Assembly: GCF_000379445.1 (NCBI RefSeq)
Contig: NZ_KB902239.1
Location: forward strand, 62,145 to 126,144
Direction of reading: 5' to 3'
Origin: Fangia hongkongensis FSC776 = DSM 21703
Lineage (GTDB): Bacteria > Pseudomonadota > Gammaproteobacteria > Francisellales > Francisellaceae
DNA length: 64,000 nucleotides
How positions within the stretch are numbered: the first letter of the stretch is position 1; every line of letters begins with the position of its first letter. The position numbers and the translations under genes are program-made. Shown one piece after another: positions 18,977-57,886 of the stretch. The notes under the pieces were generated by a model that was given only the letters and a program-made list of their open reading frames with translations, was not told the DNA's origin and searched no databases.

Positions 18977-19096
18977 CTGTGAGTTGTTATGCATATTTGA
19001 TATGAGGCATTTTCCCAATAATAGCCGCCTAACTGTTACTAAATATACATCTCATGATTACCTCTTGCATAGCGTAGTGATAAGAATATAATCTTA

Positions 19097-19263
19097 TATA
19101 CCACTCGCGAATCATTTTACGGTGTTTAATGTTGAAGAAGTTTTTGATAGTTTTGAGTCATTGGATTGCAGGCAATAGCTGGGACTATTAGCAATATCTA
19201 ATGACTCAAAAGAACAAGAAATTCAATGGCAGAAATAGGGTAAAATGGTTTGCGGGTGGTATA
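19097..19263 (+). mobile_element. MITE-like palindromic element, copy A (167 bp)
   Basis: Starts TATACCACTCGCGAATCA and ends GGTTTGCGGGTGGTATA. The ends are imperfect inverted repeats of about 24 bp, and the arms keep pairing to the centre (TTTTGAGTCATT at left against AATGACTCAAAA at right), closing with TAATAG/CTATTA. It codes for nothing. TA flanks each TACCAC end, as expected of Tc1/mariner-IS630 type insertion. The right end lies 35 bases before the SDR gene. Sequence subfamily 1, with the copy at 34871. Confidence 0.85.
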
Positions 19264-19298
19264 TACTTATTATTGTTCATTAATAATGTGAGAAACGT

Positions 19299-19901: not shown

Positions 19902-19953
19902 AAGGGCGAAAAAAGTACGCTGAGCGCTACTGTAAAATATACCAGAGCCCTAA

Positions 19954-20120
19954 TATACCACTCGCGAATCATTTTGCGGTGTTTAATGTTGAAGAAGTTT
20001 TTGATAGTTTTGAGTCATTGGGTTGCAGGTAATAGCTCGGACTATTAGCAATATCTGATGACTCAAAAGAACAAGAAATTCAATGGCAGAAATAGGGTAA
20101 AATGATTTGCGGGTGGTATA
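19954..20120 (+). mobile_element. MITE-like palindromic element, copy B (167 bp)
   Basis: Same length, ends and orientation as copy A but belongs to subfamily 2 with the copy at 57720: TTTTGCGG instead of TTTTACGG, GGGTTGCAG, CTCGGACT and TGATGACTC. The right end differs at one base (AATGATTTGC). It ends 36 bases before the VOC gene; between copies A and B lies only the SDR gene. Confidence 0.85.
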
Positions 20121-20156
20121 TACTTAATGATGTTATAGCATCATTAAGGAGATAAT

Positions 20157-20658: not shown

Positions 20659-21489
20659 CTATTCACTTTCCTCAGGCGTCTCAATGAGCTGATAGCCATT
20701 TGTATAGGCAGATTGAATCAGATCAGAGGGTTTTGATAAGCATTCATTGATTTTCTTTCGAAGGCGATAGACAAGCGAGTTAACACTATTATCAAATAGA
20801 TCAAATTCTTTATTATAGAGCGTTTTCATAAGAAACTCTTTTTGCAAGGGAATGCCGATGTTTTGAATAAGAAGCACTAGTAAATCACGCTCTTTGACAC
20901 CAAGCTTAACGAAATTCTGTTTATTTTTCTTGTTTGTTAGCGTGCGCGTATATGGGTTAAAGATCAGCTCATTAAAATAATAGTTTTTGCCGGTGGTAAT
21001 TTCAATATTCGCCTTTGGTTCATTACTATTTTTATCTACATCACTAGCGCTTTGAAAAAGCTCGGTTAATTCCAGTGCTTTTTTAATTTTGGTGATAAGA
21101 AGTCTTGTGCTAAAGGGTTTGGTAACATAATAAAGTCCACCCACTTCAAGGGCAAGAATTTGCTCTATCTCATCAGTGAGTGCGCTGATAAATATGACAG
21201 GAGTGTTATGTTCCTTGCGAAGCCTTTTACAAAAAGTAATGCCATCTTCCTCTGGCATCATGACATCAAGCAAGATTAAATGAATGGGCTGTGCTTCAAT
21301 GGCTTTCATTGCCTCAAGGGTATTTTGAGCTTCAACAACCGTAAACCCACGTTCAATAAGAGAGCTTGAGAGGATTTCACGAAAGGAGCGATCATCATCG
21401 ACAATCAGTATGGTTGCCATATCAATTAAACTCAGCGCTTTTTCTTGAAGTATATACGCCTGTTGGCTAGTTGAATAGTGATTTTGCAT
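20659..21489 (-). CDS. OmpR/PhoB-type response regulator
   Basis: Receiver domain (ILIVDDD acidic pair, phospho-accepting Asp in LILLDVMMP, Lys in YVTKPFS) followed by a winged-helix DNA-binding domain (VKLGVKERDLLVLLIQN, then SLVYRLRKKINE, GYQLIE). Receiver domains usually begin at the first residue; here the core starts at an internal Met (21420), but AGAGG six bases before the ATG at 21489 supports a 23-residue extension, so the longer start is kept. No histidine kinase gene is adjacent: it is an orphan regulator here. Downstream of the O-antigen ligase gene on the same strand, 48 bases away. Confidence 0.9.
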   Translation of the reverse strand: MQNHYSTSQQAYILQEKALSLIDMATILIVDDDRSFREILSSSLIERGFTVVEAQNTLEAMKAIEAQPIHLILLDVMMPEEDGITFCKRLRKEHNTPVIFISALTDEIEQILALEVGGLYYVTKPFSTRLLITKIKKALELTELFQSASDVDKNSNEPKANIEITTGKNYYFNELIFNPYTRTLTNKKNKQNFVKLGVKERDLLVLLIQNIGIPLQKEFLMKTLYNKEFDLFDNSVNSLVYRLRKKINECLSKPSDLIQSAYTNGYQLIETPEESE

Positions 21490-21537: not shown

Positions 21538-23043
21538 TTAAGGACACTTAAGTTTGTCACTTTGAATTAATGTTTTAATGGGCTTGTTATGGGTTGTCAG
21601 CCAGCCATTTGCCCATAAATTTGGGCTGAGTAGAGTTGACTCTTTATTTTTAATTTGACAAGCAGCACCATAGTTATAAGTGTTGGGTGTTATTTTAGGT
21701 GCGTTTTTAATGAGGAATATAAAAGTATAAGCAGCAGCTCCAAGGGTGATTAAGCTGATTAGGTAAGTGTATAGTTTACCATCGCGAGCTATATGCTTTT
21801 GATTTTCTTGTCTCACGCTTAAAATCACAGATAATAAAATGCCAATAATGACAGCAAAAAGCATCTGACTTGCTGGCATAACAATGATACCGCTGACAAG
21901 CCCTTTGACAAGAAGGCCAATAAGTGCAAATAGGCTTGCCATTGCATAGAGGTTATTTTGTAGCGCTTTTCGATATTGAAAGAGCTTAAGGCCAAGTGCG
22001 ATAAAAAGTGCAACAACACACAAAATGCCTATTATTCCCCATTCAGCAAGTAACATCACCCACATATTATGTGGATGTGCAGCGGTGATGTTATGAGAGA
22101 GATAAGCATAATGTGCGTACATGCCAGATCCAGCACCAAAAATGGGGTGTGCTTTCCATATATTGATCGATAGCTCAATAAGTGGTGCCCTATCATTATA
22201 TCGTAAAAACTCCCCCTGTCTTTCTAATGCAGAGATAATCTCGGCTCCCGTTAAATATTGAATAGCAAGGTAGGCGAAAAAAGCAATAACAAATGCCAGC
22301 AGCATATAAATAAAGTAGCGCAAAAAGAGCCTTCTAAAAAAGAGACTGCCAAAGATGAAGATTGCGAAGATAATCACCAAGTTAGCGCGTGAACCTGTAA
22401 TAATCGTTAAGTAAAATCCTGCACTGATGCCGATTAGTGTAAGGAGCTTTAATAACGGATTTTTGCTGAGCAAAATAAGTGCACCAGATAAAGGCAAAAG
22501 CCCTGCTAACAGCTGATCTAAAAAGCGCGGGTTTAAAAACTGTGGGTGAACGATTAGCGCTGAGCGCTTGCTTAGCATCGATTGATTTTGAGTCAAGTCA
22601 TCTAAGTTGATATAACCATATGCAATATAACTACAAATGATGATAAAAAATACAATGCCAAGCAGCATAAAATAACGGATATTATTTTGATTCTCTAAAC
22701 AAAGGTAGCAGCAAGCAAGGGCAAATATGCCAAGGAGTATCCATTGGCTTAAGTATAAAAACGAGATGGTTGGGTAGTAGGCATTTAGGCTGCTAATCAC
22801 CAAGCTTAACAATAAGAGCGCTACGATTAAAGCTATTTTGTAATTATTGCTGAAACAGCTGACAATAAATGCTCGAAGTGGACTGTGCAGTAAGGCAATT
22901 ATTGCAGTGGCAGATAAAAGCACTAATTGAATCATGCGCCTTTGATCATAGTAAAAGATCTTCTCTAACGAAAAAGGTGCGATAAAAAGGATGACTAATC
23001 CAAGTATTAAAAATCCTAAAAGGATATGGTTTGTGGTTTTCAT
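21538..23043 (-). CDS. O-antigen ligase family (Wzy/WaaL-like) membrane protein
   Basis: A polytopic membrane protein of 501 residues with about 11-12 hydrophobic segments. The large periplasmic loop has the ligase-domain features: ITGSRANLVIIF before it, then GAGSGMYAHYAY and HPHNMWVMLLAEWGIIG. Family members join O-antigen to lipid A-core, polymerise O units, or glycosylate proteins, and sequence alone does not separate these. No glycosyltransferase cluster is nearby, which makes a general ligase role plausible. GGGGAATAAC precedes the ATG. Confidence 0.85.
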   Translation of the reverse strand: MKTTNHILLGFLILGLVILFIAPFSLEKIFYYDQRRMIQLVLLSATAIIALLHSPLRAFIVSCFSNNYKIALIVALLLLSLVISSLNAYYPTISFLYLSQWILLGIFALACCYLCLENQNNIRYFMLLGIVFFIIICSYIAYGYINLDDLTQNQSMLSKRSALIVHPQFLNPRFLDQLLAGLLPLSGALILLSKNPLLKLLTLIGISAGFYLTIITGSRANLVIIFAIFIFGSLFFRRLFLRYFIYMLLAFVIAFFAYLAIQYLTGAEIISALERQGEFLRYNDRAPLIELSINIWKAHPIFGAGSGMYAHYAYLSHNITAAHPHNMWVMLLAEWGIIGILCVVALFIALGLKLFQYRKALQNNLYAMASLFALIGLLVKGLVSGIIVMPASQMLFAVIIGILLSVILSVRQENQKHIARDGKLYTYLISLITLGAAAYTFIFLIKNAPKITPNTYNYGAACQIKNKESTLLSPNLWANGWLTTHNKPIKTLIQSDKLKCP

Positions 23044-23239: not shown

Positions 23240-23968
23240 ATGAAGAAGATATTAAGTTTTTTTAGTTTATGTATGTTGATGCTCTCGGCACATGCACAGC
23301 TTGATCCAGGACCAATGTTGCTGGAGTGGGATAATGATGATCAGGAGATTACACGTACGATTAAAAATACAGGGGGCACGACTCAATATGTCAAAATTGA
23401 GGCTTTTAAAATACTTGATCCATTTGGAGAGAATAAAGAGATAAAGCTTGAGCTTAAAGACATGGTGAGTGATCTTTTGGTTTCACCATTAAAGATGGTT
23501 ATTCCGCCCAATTATGAAAAGCTCCTTCGCATGAGTTTGCCTAAAGGTAGAGAATCGATTACAGAGGATCAATATTACCGCATCCGTATTATTCCTGTTG
23601 AGCCGTCATTAGATAATGGTTTTTTTAATGTACAAGAAGGTAAGGTGAAAAGTGGCGTTACTTTATCTATTGCCTATGGAACCTTGCTAATTGTCACGCC
23701 ATTACAGAAAAATATTCGCTATAACACAACACATGGCATAAGTGATGGTGTTTTAAAGGTAGAAAATAAAGGCAACAGCTTTGTTAAGCTCAAAATCCAA
23801 GGGCCGTGCCGCGATGATGAGGTGAAAGGCTGTGAAAATGGGAAAAAAGTAGAGAATCGCATTGTTTATGCCAAGCAAAGTAAAAGTTTTAGTTTAACCG
23901 ATTATAACCATAAGGAGACAGAGTATGTGATTACTGAAGGCAATGAAAGAGAAACCTATGAAATTTAA
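23240..23968 (+). CDS. Periplasmic chaperone of a CS1/Cbl-type (alternate chaperone-usher) fimbria
   Basis: A 242-residue secreted protein (signal peptide to about residue 19, ..SAHAQ). It has the two-domain immunoglobulin-like layout of fimbrial chaperones: N-terminal domain with PLKMVIPPNYEKLLRMSLP and YYRIRIIPVEP, followed by GTLLIVTPL and LKVENKGNSFVKL. Gene order chaperone-pilin-usher-tip adhesin is that of CFA/I, CS1 and Burkholderia Cbl loci. The chaperone would hold pilin subunits in the periplasm until the usher takes them. First gene of the fimbrial operon. Confidence 0.85.
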   Translation: MKKILSFFSLCMLMLSAHAQLDPGPMLLEWDNDDQEITRTIKNTGGTTQYVKIEAFKILDPFGENKEIKLELKDMVSDLLVSPLKMVIPPNYEKLLRMSLPKGRESITEDQYYRIRIIPVEPSLDNGFFNVQEGKVKSGVTLSIAYGTLLIVTPLQKNIRYNTTHGISDGVLKVENKGNSFVKLKIQGPCRDDEVKGCENGKKVENRIVYAKQSKSFSLTDYNHKETEYVITEGNERETYEI

Positions 23969-24023
23969 TAGATAAATTAACTTAACAACAAACTATGTAA
24001 ATACTATATTTAGGAGAAATACA

Positions 24024-24527
24024 ATGAAAACAATGACAAAAAAACTAGCAGGCTGTGTTTTCTTAGCAGTATCCATTACTGGTGTAGCAAGTGCGAATGT
24101 ACAGGACTTGACGATGGCCTTGTCTGCAACTGTTCCAGATACTAGCCTTCCTTACTTCACAGTAACTTCGAATAAAAGTTCACTTCAGTTCAATTATGAT
24201 GCAGTGTCAGATGATTTTAAGGTCGAATCAGCAACAGTTACGGTAAGTGTAGGTTCTGGTACAATCATCGGGATAACTGCCTCTACTACTTCACCAACCC
24301 ATATGACAAGTGATAGTACGACGGGCGAACAAATTGAATATGATGTGACATTTGGGGATACAGAACTTACTCATGGAGGTGTAGATGTCTTCGGTGAGCT
24401 TGCTAACCCAACAGGTGACTCTACCGTAACACTTTTTGTTGACCCTGAAAAATATGATGAGGATAAGCATTCAGCAGGAACCTTTAGCGGTAGCCTGCAT
24501 GTTCAATTTGATGGCACCTTAACATAA
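24024..24527 (+). CDS. Major fimbrial subunit, CS1/Cbl type
   Basis: 167 residues with a signal peptide (to ..VASA), then a Thr/Ser-rich, beta-strand-like mature protein of about 143 residues with no Cys, ending in GSLHVQFDGTLT. The VQDLTMALSATV mature N-terminus resembles the donor strand of class 5 pilins (VQ..ITV.A.). AGGAG sits seven bases upstream, the strongest ribosome site of the operon, as expected for the major subunit. Assignment rests mainly on position and general features. Confidence 0.72.
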   Translation: MKTMTKKLAGCVFLAVSITGVASANVQDLTMALSATVPDTSLPYFTVTSNKSSLQFNYDAVSDDFKVESATVTVSVGSGTIIGITASTTSPTHMTSDSTTGEQIEYDVTFGDTELTHGGVDVFGELANPTGDSTVTLFVDPEKYDEDKHSAGTFSGSLHVQFDGTLT

Positions 24528-24558
24528 AATAGTTGCTAGAATAAGTGAGGTACACGCA

Positions 24559-26982
24559 ATGAACCGTCTAAAGACGTTCTGTTTAGTGGCTGTTTTATTA
24601 AGCTCAGGCTTCGTTAGTCAGCTTTACTCAAACAATCATATCCCAAAAGAGTTTATTGATTTTGCCTCACAGCAAGGAGTTGATGTTAATGTTCAGGTTT
24701 CAGGGGTTCAGCTTGGCTATTATACGGCATATGTGCAAGATACTAAACTTGAGGGAATTGATCTTAATGAGATTTTCTCTTCTGTAAAGTTGAAACCTGC
24801 CGCTAAAGCGATTATTTTAGGTGAGTGGCGTGCAGGGATTCCTTTTGAAGATACCATTTACTGTCGCACTGAATATGAAGCTCAAGGCATCTGTAAAGCT
24901 GGATCTATTCTAGCAAGAAGTCATTTTTCGAGCAAGAAATCTGAGCTGGATATTGCAATTAATAAGAGCGCTGTATCTTATCAGAATCATCAAGATCAGG
25001 GCTATCTTAATTTACATGAAAACACACGTTATGGCAGCATTTTTAACTACAATGTCTACTTTGATGTCTCGAATGATTCGTCAAGCTATAATTTAAATTT
25101 AGAGAATATCAGTAGTGTCAATAACACTTCTGTTCACAGTGGTATCATCGCCACAGGTAGTGAAAATAGCTCAAGTGAAACGCTAACGCAGCTTTATGTG
25201 CAGCAGGAGTTTCAAGATAAGCTGTTAATTGCAGGTTTTATGGGTAGTTATGAGGCGCCATTTAATGCTGTGACGCAAATGGATTACATGCCATCTGTGG
25301 ATAGTTTACTCATTGGACTTGCAAGTTCAAATAATATGAAAAAGAATAAAAAGGCAAGCTCTCAGGTGCCAATTTTAATTTATGCACAAAGCAATACCAA
25401 AGTAAAAATATACAAAGAAAACAACCTCTTAAGTGTGCAAAGTTTTGCCGCGGGAACGCATGAGGTTGACACCTCCGCTTTTCCTTATGGCATTTATTCA
25501 GTAAGAGTTGAGATTTATCAAGGCAATACCTTGATTGAAACCAGAACAAGCACGGTTGTGAAACCAACTTCAGCGGCAGATTTTGGTGATAGAAGCTCAC
25601 ATTACAGGCTATGGGTTGGGATGGCAAAAGAGACAAGTTACAAAGAACAGTTTTTTCCTGATCGCTTTAATAAAGTGTATTTGGGCGCTGCATATGCCTT
25701 TATGCCGATTACTAATACAGTGACAAACCTCTCAGCTTATGTGCTTGGTAGCACGGTAACAGGGGAGGTTGGTGTTGATTATCTACTCTCTGAGAGCGTC
25801 TCATTTAATGCTGCAGGCGCGGTTGATAACTACCACGGCTATGGTTTTAATATTAATGCACAAATGCAGCCATTTAGTCTATTGTCGATGAATTTGTGGT
25901 ATCAAAATGAAGATAACCAAAGAAATAATTATCAAAGTGAGCAGACTTTTAGTGCCTTTGCAAAAGATTACAACAGCATCGGCATAAGCTCTAGCATTAA
26001 TTTAAATGAGATCGGACTTGGCTCTTTATCGGGAAGCTACATGTATAATTTAAAAACAAATAATTTTCAGTCCAACTTGTCACATTATAAAACATGGATT
26101 AGTACAAGGGACTATCAAATTTATTCAAATATTAACTATGGCTATAGTAAGTATGTAGGGGGGCAATATAAAGACTTCTCAATTATGCTCAACTTCAGTT
26201 ACTTCTTTGATAATGGCTCGAACCTTCATAGTTCTCTTGGTCATCAAAGTAATAACAATGTTAATAGTGGCACGCTTGGCTACTCACCAAACTTTGACAG
26301 TAATTACATTGATGATGTGTCGCTTGAAATAGATTATGGTGATGTCAGTGAATCGCAAGGTATTTCGGTGGCTTTAGGTTCTGATAGCGTGAGTGGATTT
26401 ATTGATGCCGCTCACCAGTCAACCAATGGGCAATCAACTTCCTCAATTTATGGCTCTCTCTCAGGCAGCTTTGCTTTGGTTGACTTTGTCCCTTCTTTTA
26501 GTGCAGATCAGTATAATCAGGCGGGCGTTATGATTGACATGGATATGCCAGAGGATGCAAGTGTTGATGCTGAGCTTGATGGCAGGCGCTATAGCTTAAG
26601 TGCAGGGCAAAATCTCATTATGTTGCCTGCATATCAAGAATACACGCTTCAGCTTTTAGAGGATAGAAATGACAAATCAAATCTTCAATACTCTGAAAAA
26701 GAGAAAAGCTTTAGCCTTATGCCTGGAAATATTGTTCAGATTGATGAGTCAGCCATTGCGACAATACATGTATTAGGTCGTGCATTAGTCGATGGCAAGC
26801 CTAAGAAAAATGTGATGGTTAAAAACCATATCAATCAGACAGTAACCGATGAAGATGGTTATTTTATGGTGTATATCGATAAGCGTAACCCAACTTTGCA
26901 AATTAACGGTAGTTGTAAATATGAATTCCAGGATCCTAGGATTTTGCAATCAGGGCAGTGGATAGGAGTGATTGAGTGTTGA
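24559..26982 (+). CDS. Outer-membrane fimbrial usher, CS1/Cbl (TcfC-like) type
   Basis: 807 residues with a signal peptide. N-terminal domain (about 30-150), a short plug-like beta domain around residues 265-335 (VPILIYAQSNTKVKIYKENN is read as its first strands, FAAGTHEVDTSAFPYGIYSV as the next), then a long beta-barrel rich in alternating aromatic strands, and a C-terminal domain containing a carboxypeptidase-regulatory-like segment (KPKKNVMVKNHINQTV, DEDGYFMVYI). It threads subunits across the outer membrane. It overlaps the adhesin start by seven bases. Confidence 0.88.
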   Translation: MNRLKTFCLVAVLLSSGFVSQLYSNNHIPKEFIDFASQQGVDVNVQVSGVQLGYYTAYVQDTKLEGIDLNEIFSSVKLKPAAKAIILGEWRAGIPFEDTIYCRTEYEAQGICKAGSILARSHFSSKKSELDIAINKSAVSYQNHQDQGYLNLHENTRYGSIFNYNVYFDVSNDSSSYNLNLENISSVNNTSVHSGIIATGSENSSSETLTQLYVQQEFQDKLLIAGFMGSYEAPFNAVTQMDYMPSVDSLLIGLASSNNMKKNKKASSQVPILIYAQSNTKVKIYKENNLLSVQSFAAGTHEVDTSAFPYGIYSVRVEIYQGNTLIETRTSTVVKPTSAADFGDRSSHYRLWVGMAKETSYKEQFFPDRFNKVYLGAAYAFMPITNTVTNLSAYVLGSTVTGEVGVDYLLSESVSFNAAGAVDNYHGYGFNINAQMQPFSLLSMNLWYQNEDNQRNNYQSEQTFSAFAKDYNSIGISSSINLNEIGLGSLSGSYMYNLKTNNFQSNLSHYKTWISTRDYQIYSNINYGYSKYVGGQYKDFSIMLNFSYFFDNGSNLHSSLGHQSNNNVNSGTLGYSPNFDSNYIDDVSLEIDYGDVSESQGISVALGSDSVSGFIDAAHQSTNGQSTSSIYGSLSGSFALVDFVPSFSADQYNQAGVMIDMDMPEDASVDAELDGRRYSLSAGQNLIMLPAYQEYTLQLLEDRNDKSNLQYSEKEKSFSLMPGNIVQIDESAIATIHVLGRALVDGKPKKNVMVKNHINQTVTDEDGYFMVYIDKRNPTLQINGSCKYEFQDPRILQSGQWIGVIEC

Positions 26983-27944
26983 TTTTGAATAAATTGCCGT
27001 ATGTACTTTTATTGTCCGTAATTCAATATGCAGAAGCAAGTTCGATTACTATCACAGAAGATGATAAAGGGTATGGGAGCAGAAACTATGCCTCAGTTGT
27101 TTGTTCTGGTGCTCAAGATCCATGTAATAATTATCCATATGCTTTGTTGGCGGAGAAAGGTTATATTGTTACAGACGCAGATGGTGCGAATGCCACAATA
27201 AAAGTAAATAAACGGGACAGTACTCCTAGTGGGGTAGGGACGGTGTATAATCGAATAAAATTCAAGTTATATAATATGTCTTTCCCGGGGCATGAGGTTG
27301 AGGCGTTTCTTAGAGCCTCTAGAACAGTACATGGCAATACCTCTGGTCATGATTATTCTAAAACATACATAAATAATATACATTTGTTTTCATCTAATAC
27401 CGACCCTCATAGAGCTAGAGACTTTAGTTTTATATTGGAGAAAATAGAGGCTCCTGCTGGAAGTTATCGAGCAAAATTACCGTTCTTAATAAAAGATACA
27501 GAGAATAATCAAATATTAGATCTAATGGTGATAACAATTGCACTTGATATTCCATTTGAAATCATTTTTCAAGCAGCTCCCAATATCAAGTTAGTTATGC
27601 AAGACGCTAGTGATCCTATGGGGTCAGAGTATACGGCACAAACGTATATTAACTATAAAGCTAACTCGCCTGTGCCCCTGGACTATAAAGTGACTTTGCA
27701 GTGTGACTCCCCTTCAGATAATGATGGTGGTAACTGCCAGTTAGAAAACACAGATACTGCCGACCGTTGGGCTTATGAGGTTTATATCAATAATGAAAAG
27801 ATCACCACAAATGTAGCAAACACAACAGCATTGCAACAGCTTCCAAATAACTATAATATTCCGCTAAATATTGTGGCTAAAAATCCGCCTGACTCTGGGC
27901 AGCATGAAGGGCAAATGACATTAAATTTTAATGCCATGTGGTAG
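26976..27944 (+). CDS. Fimbrial tip adhesin/minor subunit, CblD/CooD-like
   Basis: 322 residues, GTG start overlapping the usher stop; AGGAG seven bases before supports it. Signal peptide to about residue 22 (..YAEA). C-terminal pilin-like half: YTAQTYINYKANSPVPLDY, VTLQC, GNCQLENT, RWAYEVYIN, then YNIPLNIV and EGQMTLNFNAMW. Two further genes in the next 2 kb share this C-terminal half (one broken, one inverted), while the N-terminal halves diverge, as expected for receptor-binding tips. This is the only copy cotranscribed intact with the usher. Confidence 0.75.
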   Translation: MLILNKLPYVLLLSVIQYAEASSITITEDDKGYGSRNYASVVCSGAQDPCNNYPYALLAEKGYIVTDADGANATIKVNKRDSTPSGVGTVYNRIKFKLYNMSFPGHEVEAFLRASRTVHGNTSGHDYSKTYINNIHLFSSNTDPHRARDFSFILEKIEAPAGSYRAKLPFLIKDTENNQILDLMVITIALDIPFEIIFQAAPNIKLVMQDASDPMGSEYTAQTYINYKANSPVPLDYKVTLQCDSPSDNDGGNCQLENTDTADRWAYEVYINNEKITTNVANTTALQQLPNNYNIPLNIVAKNPPDSGQHEGQMTLNFNAMW

Positions 27945-27972
27945 GTATCCACTGGTTGATGGGAGGTCTAAG

Positions 27973-28920
27973 ATGAGAAAAGTGCAAAAGTATACTCTTA
28001 TGGCCATCACTTTACTAAAGGGCTTTTTGTTTTCAGCTTTAGTATATGCTGAAACGGAGATAGTTAACATAACAGCCTTTGACACAGAAAAGCAGAGTCA
28101 AGACTGGCAGTACATAATAGAAGCTGAGACAGGATACATTGGGGGGAGGACATTCGTTAATAGCACTTTCAAATAATGTATTGTCTAGTACAATGCAAAA
28201 TAGATATGATGATGCTTGGGATTACCATAAAAAATGGGGCAATGGAGCAATAGGGAGAGCTACGATACGTTTGGAGGATAGGCAAAGAGGGAGTACAGAA
28301 GAGTTTGAAGTGCAGTTTATGAAGACGCTATTTGCTCAGAATACAACAAAGTATACAAAACCTAATAATGGTGATAAGTTTCATAGTGCAGAGTAGGGAG
28401 ATGAAACTCGGTATTATTTTAGAGTGCTAAGCTCTGAAAACCAAGATAAAGTAGCGGGGCTATATCTTGGCAATATATCAATGCCAGTAATTGCTAATGG
28501 AGGAAACACCCAAACTGCGGGTTACATTCTCGTCAATTTTAAATTGGCTGTGCCATTAATAATGAGTTTTTCAGCGCAGAATATGCATTGCAGTTGAATG
28601 AATCTAATGAGCATTATCGTGCCAGTACAAGGGTTGACTTTTTATCTAATTCACCGGTGCCTTTGGAGATTACAGCACAATTACAATGTGGGTATTTGGT
28701 TAATAACAGGTGTGCATTAACCCATGACAGTAATTTGGATTATTGGCAATACTTGGTTGATATTATTGGTCAAGCTATTTTCCCTGATGATAAGCTAAAA
28801 ATAACTTTAAACCCGCAGGATAGTTTTAACCTTGGCGTGAATGCAAAAATGCCTTATGGAAAAGAGTCAGGGAGTTATTCTGGCCAGTTTACTGTTGTGT
28901 TTGATGCTGATTGGGATTAA
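27973..28920 (+). pseudogene. Broken paralogue of the fimbrial tip adhesin
   Basis: Starts well (GGGAGG six bases before ATG 27973, signal peptide ending ..VYAET) but suffers three lesions. First, a G6 run at 28141-28146: five Gs would restore the frame (IGGGHSLIALSNN). Second, an in-frame TAG at 28394-28396 between KFHSAE and GDETRYYFRVL. Third, a frameshift near 28580, after which EYALQLNES, YRASTRVDFLSNSPVPLEI and SGSYSGQFTVVFDADW match the C-terminal half of the intact adhesin. It follows that gene by 28 bases and would be cotranscribed. Confidence 0.85.
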
Positions 28921-29103
28921 ATTTGGATTTTATTAGTAAGTCATTTATTGAGGTTAATGCTAAGCAGCTGTAAAATTATGGTATCAATGATCCATGCGTT
29001 GGAGTGTGAGTGATATCGGTCACATATTTTTCATTTGCACTTGATGCGCTAAATCTCTGCTGACACAAGTTGGCATTGCTGACAAAAGGCAAAGACAAAA
29101 GCA

Positions 29104-30072
29104 TTATTGCCATACTGCATTAAATGTAAGGGTGAACTGTCCATGATATTCACCTGCATGGGGGGCGTTATCTGTTGTTATTTGTAAGGGGATGTTAAAT
29201 TGGTTTGGTATAGCCTTTAGCGTTACTGGGGTATTACTTACAGCTAATTCTTCATTATTCACAAACACATGGTAAGTCCACCGGGTTTGACTGATTCGTT
29301 CTTCTAGCTGACAGTTATTATTTTGTTCATCTACATTAGGGCACTGTAGAGTCACTTCATAGTCAATGGCTATGGGCGCATTGGATGTGTGTTGAATGTA
29401 GGTTTTAGCAGCATAAGGTTCAGTGAGTGGTTTTGATGGGTTAGTCGGCTTTAGCTGTAAGTCTGATGAGGCAACTGTGAAACTATACTCAAGCGGGACA
29501 GTAAAATCAAAATTTAAGCTTAATGTGTCTATGTGAGAGCCATCAATAGTTTTATGGGTAGAAAAATGAAATGAGCCAGAGTAGCTGCCGGCAAATTTCT
29601 CTATACCAGTGATTTCTGTGGGAGCAAGTAAAAACTTTGGCGAATTAGGAGTAGCATTCCAGCCGTTTGTATTATTTGCGTAGGTTGTTCCATACCCCCA
29701 GCAATCACCACATTGTCTGCTTGCGGACATTTGCAGATATATAGGTAATCTAGCATTGGTGTCTTCATCTATAAGCTCAAGCTTCATCCTCCTAAAGACA
29801 CTGCCGACATTATTGTAGTCCTCGTGATGTGTATCTGCAGAGCTTGATGCTATAGCGCTAGTCATGGTGTCATCATTAAGGACTTGACCTGTGCTGGCGT
29901 TAGTATACATGGCATATACGGAGCCTGATGAAATGTTACTGCTATAAGAGACCCCATATGCAGCATTCGGGTCATAGTAACGAGTAAAGGTTACTGACTT
30001 TGCATAAGCATTTCCAAGAAGCGTAATGCAAACCATGAGTGGCATTAGTTTTTTAATCATTTGTGTAAACAT
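29104..30072 (-). CDS. Tip-adhesin paralogue in inverted orientation
   Basis: 322 residues, the same length as the operon's adhesin. Signal peptide (..LGNAYAKS). The C-terminal half matches the intact copy: YAAKTYIQHTSNAPIAIDY, VTLQC, NNCQLEERI, RWTYHVFVNNEEL, QFNIPLQI, GEYHGQFTLTFNAVW. The N-terminal half is different and contains Cys in RQCGDCWGYG. On the opposite strand to the usher it needs its own promoter. An ATG at 30060 is an alternative start. It could be a separately expressed adhesin or a silent donor cassette. Confidence 0.75.
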   Translation of the reverse strand: MFTQMIKKLMPLMVCITLLGNAYAKSVTFTRYYDPNAAYGVSYSSNISSGSVYAMYTNASTGQVLNDDTMTSAIASSSADTHHEDYNNVGSVFRRMKLELIDEDTNARLPIYLQMSASRQCGDCWGYGTTYANNTNGWNATPNSPKFLLAPTEITGIEKFAGSYSGSFHFSTHKTIDGSHIDTLSLNFDFTVPLEYSFTVASSDLQLKPTNPSKPLTEPYAAKTYIQHTSNAPIAIDYEVTLQCPNVDEQNNNCQLEERISQTRWTYHVFVNNEELAVSNTPVTLKAIPNQFNIPLQITTDNAPHAGEYHGQFTLTFNAVWQ

Positions 30073-30423: not shown

Positions 30424-31794
30424 GTGAGAACATTACTGCAAGGGTTTGGTGTTGGACTGTTGGGTGCGATCGTCATGACCCCGCATTTTGCAAATGCACT
30501 TGAAGGAGAGGATAGTTATATTCCGGGCTATAATTTGCAATCAAAAGTGGGAAACATGCTATTAGCCTCAGAGATAGAGCAAAACTACAGCGTTATTGAC
30601 TATGATTATCAGGGGGTTTTAACTGCAAGCAATCAACTCTTGGAAAGCTACTTTACAAAACACCATCGAGATCTTGCTACAAGCATTCAGTTCTTTGAGC
30701 AGTTAAATGCGCCGTATATCTATAGTGGCGCTATTGGTGAGGGACGCTGTCAATCAGCACATTGCACTAAAATACAGCAAGATTTGCCTTATCGTTTAGA
30801 TGGACTTGATTGTGTGACGTTGGTGCAAGATTTGTTAGCATTGAACCAGTCAGGTAATATCGCTGAATTTAAACAAAACTTGCGTCAGATCAGCTATGGT
30901 GCTTATGATCAAAGTGATACTATGAGCTTTTTGAATCGCAATAATTTCACTAGCAGTGATTTTAATCGTGTGAATCAAGCATCAAGAGTGTTAAAAGATG
31001 TAACGAGCTTCGGCCCCTTTTCAAATTATGTGGCTCATTTGCCACAAAAAGTTATCGATCACAAAAGCTGGTTTGAGATTAAGGTGGAGCCTCAGAATCT
31101 AAAAAGTAATATCAGAGTGTTACCGCAAAATGAAAAAAGTGCGCCAAGCATTATCGCAAAATTTACAAATGGTTATGCTGATGGCTTTGATCCTATCACC
31201 ATCAATAATTTCCCCTTTATCCCCAAAGAGGCGTTAGTAAAGAAAACAGCAGACGGTTATCAGGCAAATGAGGTTCTTATCAACAAATTGATTACCCCAT
31301 CGGTTGTTGAGTTTGTGCGAGAGGATAGTAAATGGATGATTGGTGATAAGCCAATTAATGAGATTATTGGCTCGAATATCCTTATCTCACATATGGGTGT
31401 GTTGTATAAAAAGCGCTTTAAAAAAGGTGAGATTATCTATCAAGCAATCAACTGTGATTATAATCAATTAGGTGAAAAAATATGTACAGTCAAACCGGTT
31501 AAATGTAACAAGGGTAGTTGTGAAAAAGTGATGCTGCTGGCGGCAAGTAATGCTTACCCAAATGATTACATCTATTCAAAAAAAGTAGGTGAAGAGCGCT
31601 ATGCTTGCACTGATAACACTAAGGTACCAAGCGGTTTTATTCCTGTTAAAAATAAGCTATCTGGTAAGCCTACTACATGTAATAGGACATTCTCTATGCC
31701 ACTTGAGGATTATCTTGCTTCAAAGCAATATGGGAAATATCCATATATGGAAAGCGCCTCTTTAGTTGGCATTCATGTGGAGAAGATTGTATAA
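30424..31794 (+). CDS. DUF1460 (N-acetylmuramoyl-L-alanine amidase-like) secreted protein
   Basis: 456 residues with a signal peptide (..HFANA). The central LDGLDCVTLVQDLLAL, around residue 130, matches the catalytic-Cys segment of DUF1460, an NlpC/P60-like amidase family that can act on peptidoglycan fragments; a His candidate is in ILISHMGVLYKK. Compared with typical family members (about 250-300 residues) the C-terminal extension with several Cys (KPVKCNKGSCEK, ACTDN) is unusual. GTG start with AGGAGG seven bases upstream. It is not part of the fimbrial operon. Confidence 0.7.
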   Translation: MRTLLQGFGVGLLGAIVMTPHFANALEGEDSYIPGYNLQSKVGNMLLASEIEQNYSVIDYDYQGVLTASNQLLESYFTKHHRDLATSIQFFEQLNAPYIYSGAIGEGRCQSAHCTKIQQDLPYRLDGLDCVTLVQDLLALNQSGNIAEFKQNLRQISYGAYDQSDTMSFLNRNNFTSSDFNRVNQASRVLKDVTSFGPFSNYVAHLPQKVIDHKSWFEIKVEPQNLKSNIRVLPQNEKSAPSIIAKFTNGYADGFDPITINNFPFIPKEALVKKTADGYQANEVLINKLITPSVVEFVREDSKWMIGDKPINEIIGSNILISHMGVLYKKRFKKGEIIYQAINCDYNQLGEKICTVKPVKCNKGSCEKVMLLAASNAYPNDYIYSKKVGEERYACTDNTKVPSGFIPVKNKLSGKPTTCNRTFSMPLEDYLASKQYGKYPYMESASLVGIHVEKIV

Positions 31795-31897: not shown

Positions 31898-32224
31898 ATG
31901 AATTGGACTGTCGAGTTTTATAAAGGTGTTGAAAGTGACATTTTAAACCTTCCAAATAAGCTACAAGCAAAAATGTTGAGGTTATTTGATTTAGTTGAAA
32001 TACACGGAACCAATTTGAGAGAACCTCATACCAAGGCTTTGCAAGATGGTCTTTTTGAGTTAAGGGCAAAAGCTTTAGAAGGCATTGCTAGAGGGATCTT
32101 TTGCTATGCTAATGGTAGGAAAATAGTTGTTTTAAATGTATTCATTAAGAAAACACAAAAAACACCACAAAAAGAAATTGATTTAGCATTAAAACGTATG
32201 AAGGATATTGAGCATGAATCTTAA
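31898..32224 (+). CDS. RelE/Gp49-type toxin
   Basis: 108 residues matching the phage-derived Gp49-like/HigB group of RelE-fold toxins: WTVEFYKGVESDILNLP, then LREPHTKALQDGLFELRAK with the conserved G-L-x-E-L-R, RGIFCYANGRKIVVLNVFIKKTQKTP and closing EIDLALKRMKD. Expected to cleave mRNA at the ribosome. It overlaps the antitoxin by 11 bases. Intact, without internal lesions. Located between DUF1460 and the tRNA pair. Confidence 0.87.
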   Translation: MNWTVEFYKGVESDILNLPNKLQAKMLRLFDLVEIHGTNLREPHTKALQDGLFELRAKALEGIARGIFCYANGRKIVVLNVFIKKTQKTPQKEIDLALKRMKDIEHES

Positions 32225-32489
32225 ACAATTGAAAGCTAAGGCTTTTGAAAACAAATCAGTTAAACAAGAGTATGATCATCTTGAGAGTGAGTTTGAATTA
32301 ATTAATAAGCTGATAAATATCAGGAAAAAATCAGGCCTGACTCAAGAGCAAATAGCAGTAAAAATGGGAACAACTAAAAGCAATGTGTGTAGAATGGAGA
32401 AGCTGGGGACGCATCCAAAAGTGAGCACGGTAGATAAATACGCCAAGGCCTGTGGCTTTAAGCTGGATTTCCAATTTAAAACTTTGTAG
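32214..32489 (+). CDS. XRE-family antitoxin
   Basis: 91 residues. The HTH segment is KSGLTQEQIAVKMGTTKSNVCRME, residues about 40-63, preceded by an N-terminal helix likely to cap the toxin. The ATG at 32214 is chosen over a TTG at 32208 because AAGGA at 32201-32205 lies eight bases upstream. It would bind the inverted repeat at 31856-31873. Confidence 0.88.
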   Translation: MNLKQLKAKAFENKSVKQEYDHLESEFELINKLINIRKKSGLTQEQIAVKMGTTKSNVCRMEKLGTHPKVSTVDKYAKACGFKLDFQFKTL

Positions 32490-34870: not shown

Positions 34871-35037
34871 TATACCACTCTCGAATCATTTTACGGTGTT
34901 TAATGTTGAAGAAGTTTTTGATAGTTTTGAGTCATTGGATTGCAGGTAATAGCTGGGACTATTAGCAATATCTAATGACTCAAAAGAACAAGAAATTCAA
35001 TGGCAGAAATAGGGTAAAATGGTTTGCGGGTGGTATA
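34871..35037 (+). mobile_element. MITE-like palindromic element, copy D (167 bp)
   Basis: Subfamily 1, differing from copy A by a few bases (CACTCTCGAATCA at the left end, GCAGGTAATAG in the centre). Flanked by TA. Its right end TGGTATAAAA lies 76 bases upstream of the aldehyde dehydrogenase start, in the sense direction. Confidence 0.85.
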
Positions 35038-57598: not shown

Positions 57599-57719
57599 AG
57601 GTATCTCCTTAATTATAAACGATTTGAATCATTGCATTTGGCGATGCAAGTGTTAGTTTATAAATGAAACGTAATAGGCATATGACAAATGGAAAGTTTT
57701 TTGTAACAACTTTGTTATA

Positions 57720-57886
57720 TATACCACTCGCGAATCATTTTGCGGTGTTTAATGTTGAAGAAGTTTTTGATAGTTTTGAGTCATTGGGTTGCAGGTAATA
57801 GCTCGGACTATTAGCAATATTTGATGACTCAAAAGAACAAGAAATTCAATGGCAGAAATAGGGTAAAATGGTTTGCGGGTGGTATA
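57720..57886 (+). mobile_element. MITE-like palindromic element, copy C (167 bp)
   Basis: Subfamily 2, nearly identical to copy B. Ends TGGTATAAAG 55 bases upstream of the response-regulator start in the sense orientation; TA flanks both ends. Confidence 0.85.

Follow-up and report, generated by a model that had tools for sequence, protein, structure and literature searches.

The adhesin genes in the window, the 64,000-nucleotide stretch of DNA that was analysed, belong to a pilus locus whose history is likely, as we read it, to have been one of exchange between lineages and not of switching in place: a class-5-like operon with adhesin A at the tip, whose core would have been transferred between genera, whose tip adhesin would have had its N-terminal part replaced in one lineage, and whose further adhesin copies are old and do not recombine. 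The two additional copies, the dead B and the intact C, form part of the same explanation, as paralogues that would stem from old duplications or acquisitions.

The pilus operon and its surroundings

The genome holding the window measures 2.95 Mb, and its closest named relative found is Cysteiniphilum marinum, which carries a different genus label (g3 against g1 for the window genome) and whose corresponding operon lies on locus L004. Four genes of the window, all on the forward strand, encode a periplasmic chaperone predicted to belong to the alternate chaperone-usher type (class 5 / alpha; 23240..23968), a major pilin (24024..24527), an outer-membrane usher of the TcfC/CooC type (24559..26982) and adhesin A (26976-27944), whose GTG start overlaps the usher stop. 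This is the gene order of CFA/I, namely chaperone, major pilin, usher and tip adhesin. The usher lies well above the Pfam cut-offs for TcfC (62.5 bits, cut-off 29.4) and CooC_C (42.1 bits, cut-off 29), domains that mark the ushers of CS1/CFA-type (class 5, alternate) pili. The chaperone gives a weak EcpB_C match of 16.8 bits, under the Pfam cut-off of 26.1, and is 22-32% identical (blastp, aligned part) to the chaperones adjoining more distant ushers of the family. A Pfam scan of the pilin 24024-24527 returned no match; its C. marinum orthologue (L004 7442-7954, 44% amino acid identity) reaches 21.4 bits for Fimbrial_CS1 (PF04449), with a cut-off of 21. Judged by its sequence, the operon 23240-27944 encodes a class-5-like pilus of the alternate chaperone-usher kind. 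A scan for promoters and terminators gave sites no more numerous than in shuffles.

Upstream and on the reverse strand lie genes for an OmpR-type response regulator (20659..21489) and for an O-antigen-ligase-like protein (21538..23043; Pfam Wzy_C, 53.9 bits), whose counterpart adjoins the C. marinum operon (L004 12795-14306; 42.1 bits, 43% amino acid identity to the window copy). Response regulator genes flank seven of 15 further alternate usher loci (L031, L032, L033, L035, L037, L038 and L041), and a Wzy_C gene or a relative of it stands near the pilus operon in three loci, the two just named and L035 4952-6487; glycosylation of the pilin is a possible role for these genes. Downstream, an AmiA-like protein (30424..31794, forward strand) is 58% identical to a protein flanking the C. 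marinum operon, and it is followed by two small genes (31898-32489) with the look of a toxin-antitoxin pair (RelE/HigB-like plus helix-turn-helix), recognised by eye. The window also holds four copies (19096-19268, 19951-20125, 34871-35037 and 57719-57886) of a dispersed MITE-like repeat of about 168 bp, which has terminal inverted repeats (TATACCACTCGCGAATCATTTT at one end) and folds as a single long hairpin. At least 33 near full-length copies with 93-100% identity are present in the same genome (40 of 65 candidates scored), and a copy at 80% stands directly before the C. marinum pilus operon (L004 6335-6507).

The adhesin family is sparsely distributed, being found in two of the 30 genomes searched from the bacterial family and, in a sample of 369 genomes of the class, in one, namely the window's own; the C. 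marinum genome (G005) does not appear among the matches listed for that class sample. No member was found in plasmid records. Relatives of the usher occur in 8/30 genomes of the bacterial family; the Pfam model Usher (PF00577) missed even the known usher of the window genome and is thus blind here.

Three adhesin paralogues and the role of the orphan copy

The first-pass annotation had described three paralogous tip adhesins at a fimbrial operon, of which one is live, another broken and the third inverted, and this description holds in its coordinates and reading frames as well as in the nature of the copies, with protein similarity far above chance, the lesions of B, the usher domains and CfaE-like models all in its favour. 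Pseudogene B (approximately 27973-28920, forward strand) is the second adhesin cistron and starts 28 nt after A, its ATG being preceded by GGGAGG, a ribosome-binding-site-like sequence. Its frame is broken by a frameshift within 28139-28176, beside a run of six G, by an in-frame TAG at 28394-28396 and by a second frameshift at about 28545-28597. Slippage of the G-run was considered as an on/off switch of B and set aside, as B has two further lesions. Adhesin C (29104-30072, reverse strand) lies tail to tail with B and is an intact orphan tip adhesin gene, a frame of 322 codons with a signal-like start. A whole-genome search with A returned only the sites of A, B and C at E <= 10.

Between the AG[STN]Y motif and the C-terminus, A and C align with a score of 315 (shuffle mean 32.6; none of 1000 shuffles equal), and the C-terminal fragment of B scores 124 with A and 120 with C, the maxima of 500 shuffles being 55 and 52. 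When the adhesin of the C. marinum operon and that of a second pilus operon in the same species (genome G005, locus L031) are added to A and C, the C-terminal parts are homologous in all six pairings, with scores of 183-425 against shuffle means near 33 and 0/1000 shuffles matching them. The N-terminal parts of the same four proteins stay at shuffle level in five of six pairings, the exception being the marginal pair of A and C (51 against a mean of 30.9, a score reached by six of 1000 shuffles). The N-terminal fragments of B, joined before scoring with an X placed at the stop, score best with the C. marinum adhesin (65; 0/2000 shuffles), followed by the L031 adhesin (51; 8/2000), C (49; 21/2000) and A (36; 263/2000); the similarity to the C. 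marinum adhesin is weak and sits partly in a conserved linker, but a single B fragment taken alone with the N-terminal part of that adhesin gives 4/1000 shuffles. The earlier view that the C-terminal part is common and the N-terminal part hardly so is therefore true of the proteins; in DNA, the common part of A and C is only 52% identical (last 130 columns of the codon alignment).

Structure models of A and C, built from four-sequence alignments, have mean pLDDT values of 52 and 53 and are confident only from about residue 190, residues 1-158 lying mostly below 50. In both cases the top PDB match is CfaE (6k73), with Foldseek E-values of 2.3e-6 for A (second-look Z 11.7) and 3.0e-8 for C, whose N-terminal part is likewise of low confidence. 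Residues 193-322 of A, roughly the span of its pilin domain, superpose on CfaE (3f83, 2hb0) with Z 10.8-11.0 and an rmsd of 2.7-2.8 over 125 residues, and many other chaperone-usher pilins, from other families too, score almost level with CfaE in the second-look structural table. Pfam and NCBIfam searches with A and C gave no significant family, and a four-sequence adhesin profile retrieved no chain from the PDB sequences at E <= 10, the window adhesins being too distant from CFA/I for sequence matches of this kind. The models firmly predict a C-terminal Ig-like pilin domain in A and C. In class 5 tip adhesins, an N-terminal adhesin domain is joined to a C-terminal pilin domain, as described in PMC7531860. 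Since the N-terminal models lack confidence, it is by position and by the precedent of CfaE that the N-terminal part is presumed to be the receptor domain; A would be the first subunit of the pilus, located at the tip, and would bind the receptor.

When expressed, C would probably use the same chaperone and usher as the A operon. The genome does encode a second, distant alternate usher (L051 5532-7991 on G000:C36), 20% identical to the operon usher, and its presence makes the usher assignment of C less than certain; in the 16 kb around it, however, no chaperone, pilin or adhesin was recognised, so that C most likely pairs with the usher of the A operon. That C is instead no alternative tip of this pilus and is unexpressed, being either the remnant of a second operon since lost or the client of another usher, is a minority possibility of appreciable weight, and one compatible with the main explanation. 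The second usher speaks for it, as do the decay of extra copies seen here in B and the lack of any chaperone, usher or pilin gene adjoining C besides those of the A operon. It is at odds with the intact frame and signal-like start of C, with the lack of a recognisable chaperone or adhesin around the second usher, and with the fact that, of all the sequences found, those nearest to C are A, the C. marinum adhesin and the adhesin of the L031 operon.

Comparison with the Cysteiniphilum marinum operon

The window operon and that of C. marinum show an excess of identity of the kind that horizontal transfer leaves. Protein identity amounts to 90% for the usher, 84% for the chaperone and 82% for the last ~75 codons of adhesin A, whereas GlyS is 59% identical. 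The same excess is seen at fourfold sites, where identity is 172/257 (67%) in the usher, 45/70 (64%) in the chaperone, 23/38 (61%) in the pilin and 13/21 at the 3' end of adhesin A (last 71 columns), as compared with 40/144 (28%) in GlyS, 30/83 (36%) in the AmiA-like gene and 16/60 (27%) in the Wzy_C ligase. GroEL, which is usually codon-biased, reaches 146/259 (56%), so that conserved expression bias could lift the usher value somewhat. The excess of usher, chaperone and pilin over GlyS, the AmiA-like gene and the ligase points to a movement of the operon that postdates the separation of the genera: by this sequence comparison the machinery probably moved between genera, that is, its core would have passed between the window genus and Cysteiniphilum. 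The dS values against C. marinum are 0.66 for the usher and 0.76 for the pilin, and the last 77 adhesin codons are usher-like at 0.61. The major pilin (24024-24527) shows a dN/dS of 0.63, compared with 0.08 in the adjacent usher, which is fast protein change for its age.

Between usher and adhesin end, this similarity is interrupted. In DNA it breaks off where the usher ends and the adhesin begins, and it returns at 27655, from where the 3' end of A (27655..27944, forward strand) is common with the C. marinum operon adhesin at 79% identity, rising to 84% over the last ~75 codons. The N-terminal parts of the two adhesins reach a score of 26, whereas shuffles average 27.4 and 603 of 1000 do at least as well; at 41% nucleotide identity with indels they are unalignable above chance. 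The step is abrupt, taking place within ~40 codons, and the break falls inside the pilin domain. An N-terminal part at chance level, together with a similarity that stops and then resumes, argues that the tip adhesin had its N-terminal part replaced, which would have taken place in one of the two lineages. Such an exchange would lie between conserved usher DNA upstream and, downstream, the 3' end of the pilin domain, conserved as well, with homologous recombination as its putative cause. At the protein level the C. marinum adhesin is nearer to C just before the break and nearer to A after it; in DNA it is not clearly nearer to C, which argues against C as the donor of the swapped part.

Alternatively, nothing was replaced, and A and the C. 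marinum adhesin have N-terminal parts with a common ancestor, from which they diverged beyond recognition under strong selection. Fast protein change does occur in this operon, since the pilin, at the usher's synonymous age and with the dN/dS of 0.63 given above, retains a protein identity of only 44%. The pilin can still be aligned, however, whereas the N-terminal part of the adhesin lies exactly at shuffle level, with 41% nucleotide identity and indels, and gradual divergence fits poorly with a step of ~40 codons; we regard this alternative as unlikely, and replacement in one lineage as the better account of the same data.

The proposed recombination among the local copies, and known fimbrial systems

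The first-pass annotation had proposed that the common ends would permit recombination among A, B and C, by gene conversion or inversion; the comparison at the DNA level supports neither. An identity in the common half too low for recombination, which that annotation had itself named as grounds for refutation, is what the DNA shows. The longest identical runs are 9 nt for A-C, 12 nt for A-B and 9 nt for C-B, as in codon-shuffled controls (means 9.7, 10.5 and 9.7); between A and the C. marinum adhesin the longest run is 36 nt. No invertible-repeat pair was found across A and C, the best inverted pair being 34 nt at 74%, and no site-specific recombinase was evident by eye among the ORFs of at least 80 aa between 20 and 34 kb. 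The minimal recombination segment quoted for E. coli in PMC5378121 is 23-27 bp, and PMC2327257 gives about 30 bp, as well as a phage assay in which 22% divergence cut RecABCD inversion about 100-fold. No substrate for recombination was found, and the three copies would not recombine with one another. Tip switching inside this genome through the common 3' ends, whether by gene conversion or by inversion, is suggested by the three adjoining paralogues, one of them inverted, with a C-terminal domain in common, and is extremely improbable in view of the 52% identity, the shuffle-like runs, the poor inverted pair and the published minima. What stands of the idea of N-terminal exchange is its occurrence between genera, where in the C. 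marinum operon the same adhesin end and the same usher go with an N-terminal part unrelated to that of A, and not among the local copies; the exchange of tip parts would run between lineages.

Among the class 5 fimbriae of enterotoxigenic E. coli, the locus resembles CFA/I (CfaABCE) and CS1 (Coo) in its gene order and in the usher domains TcfC and CooC_C, and CFA/I in addition through CfaE, the best structural match of both adhesin models. Unlike in these systems, the window operon is followed by two extra adhesin paralogues, the dead B and the inverted C. The phase switch of type 1 fimbriae works by an inversion at the fimbrial locus; here, by contrast, no invertible repeat was found, and the unit inverted would be a coding gene and not a promoter. 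For Salmonella, PMC3373541 describes fimbrial adhesin genes in tandem and recombination between them, and also adhesins that vary next to conserved ushers, and by this precedent the exchange of tip adhesins is already known in kind. In the ste fimbriae of Salmonella the suggested recombination joins tandem copies; the copies in the window are far too diverged for this, and the exchange would be between genera. Literature searches found nothing on orphan adhesins of chaperone-usher systems and, on mosaic fimbrial adhesins, nothing relevant among the matches listed.

The idea of local switching gives way to one in which the tip specificity of alternate chaperone-usher pili would change through exchange of the N-terminal part between lineages on a conserved chassis. 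Extended to the aquatic family as a whole, the proposal would be that the pilus core (chaperone, usher and pilin-domain end) is a mobile chassis between genera, on which tip receptor domains are exchanged through the flanking homology of usher and pilin end and displaced tips such as B and C linger, dead or inverted; in this general form it is tentative and, on balance, somewhat doubtful. It is the exchange between genera, on a mobile chassis, that deserves to be followed. The Fastidiosibacteraceae and their relatives include symbionts of protists and a suspected pathogen of corals, and the system described here lets the diversification of tip and pilin be dated against each other in a little-studied family.
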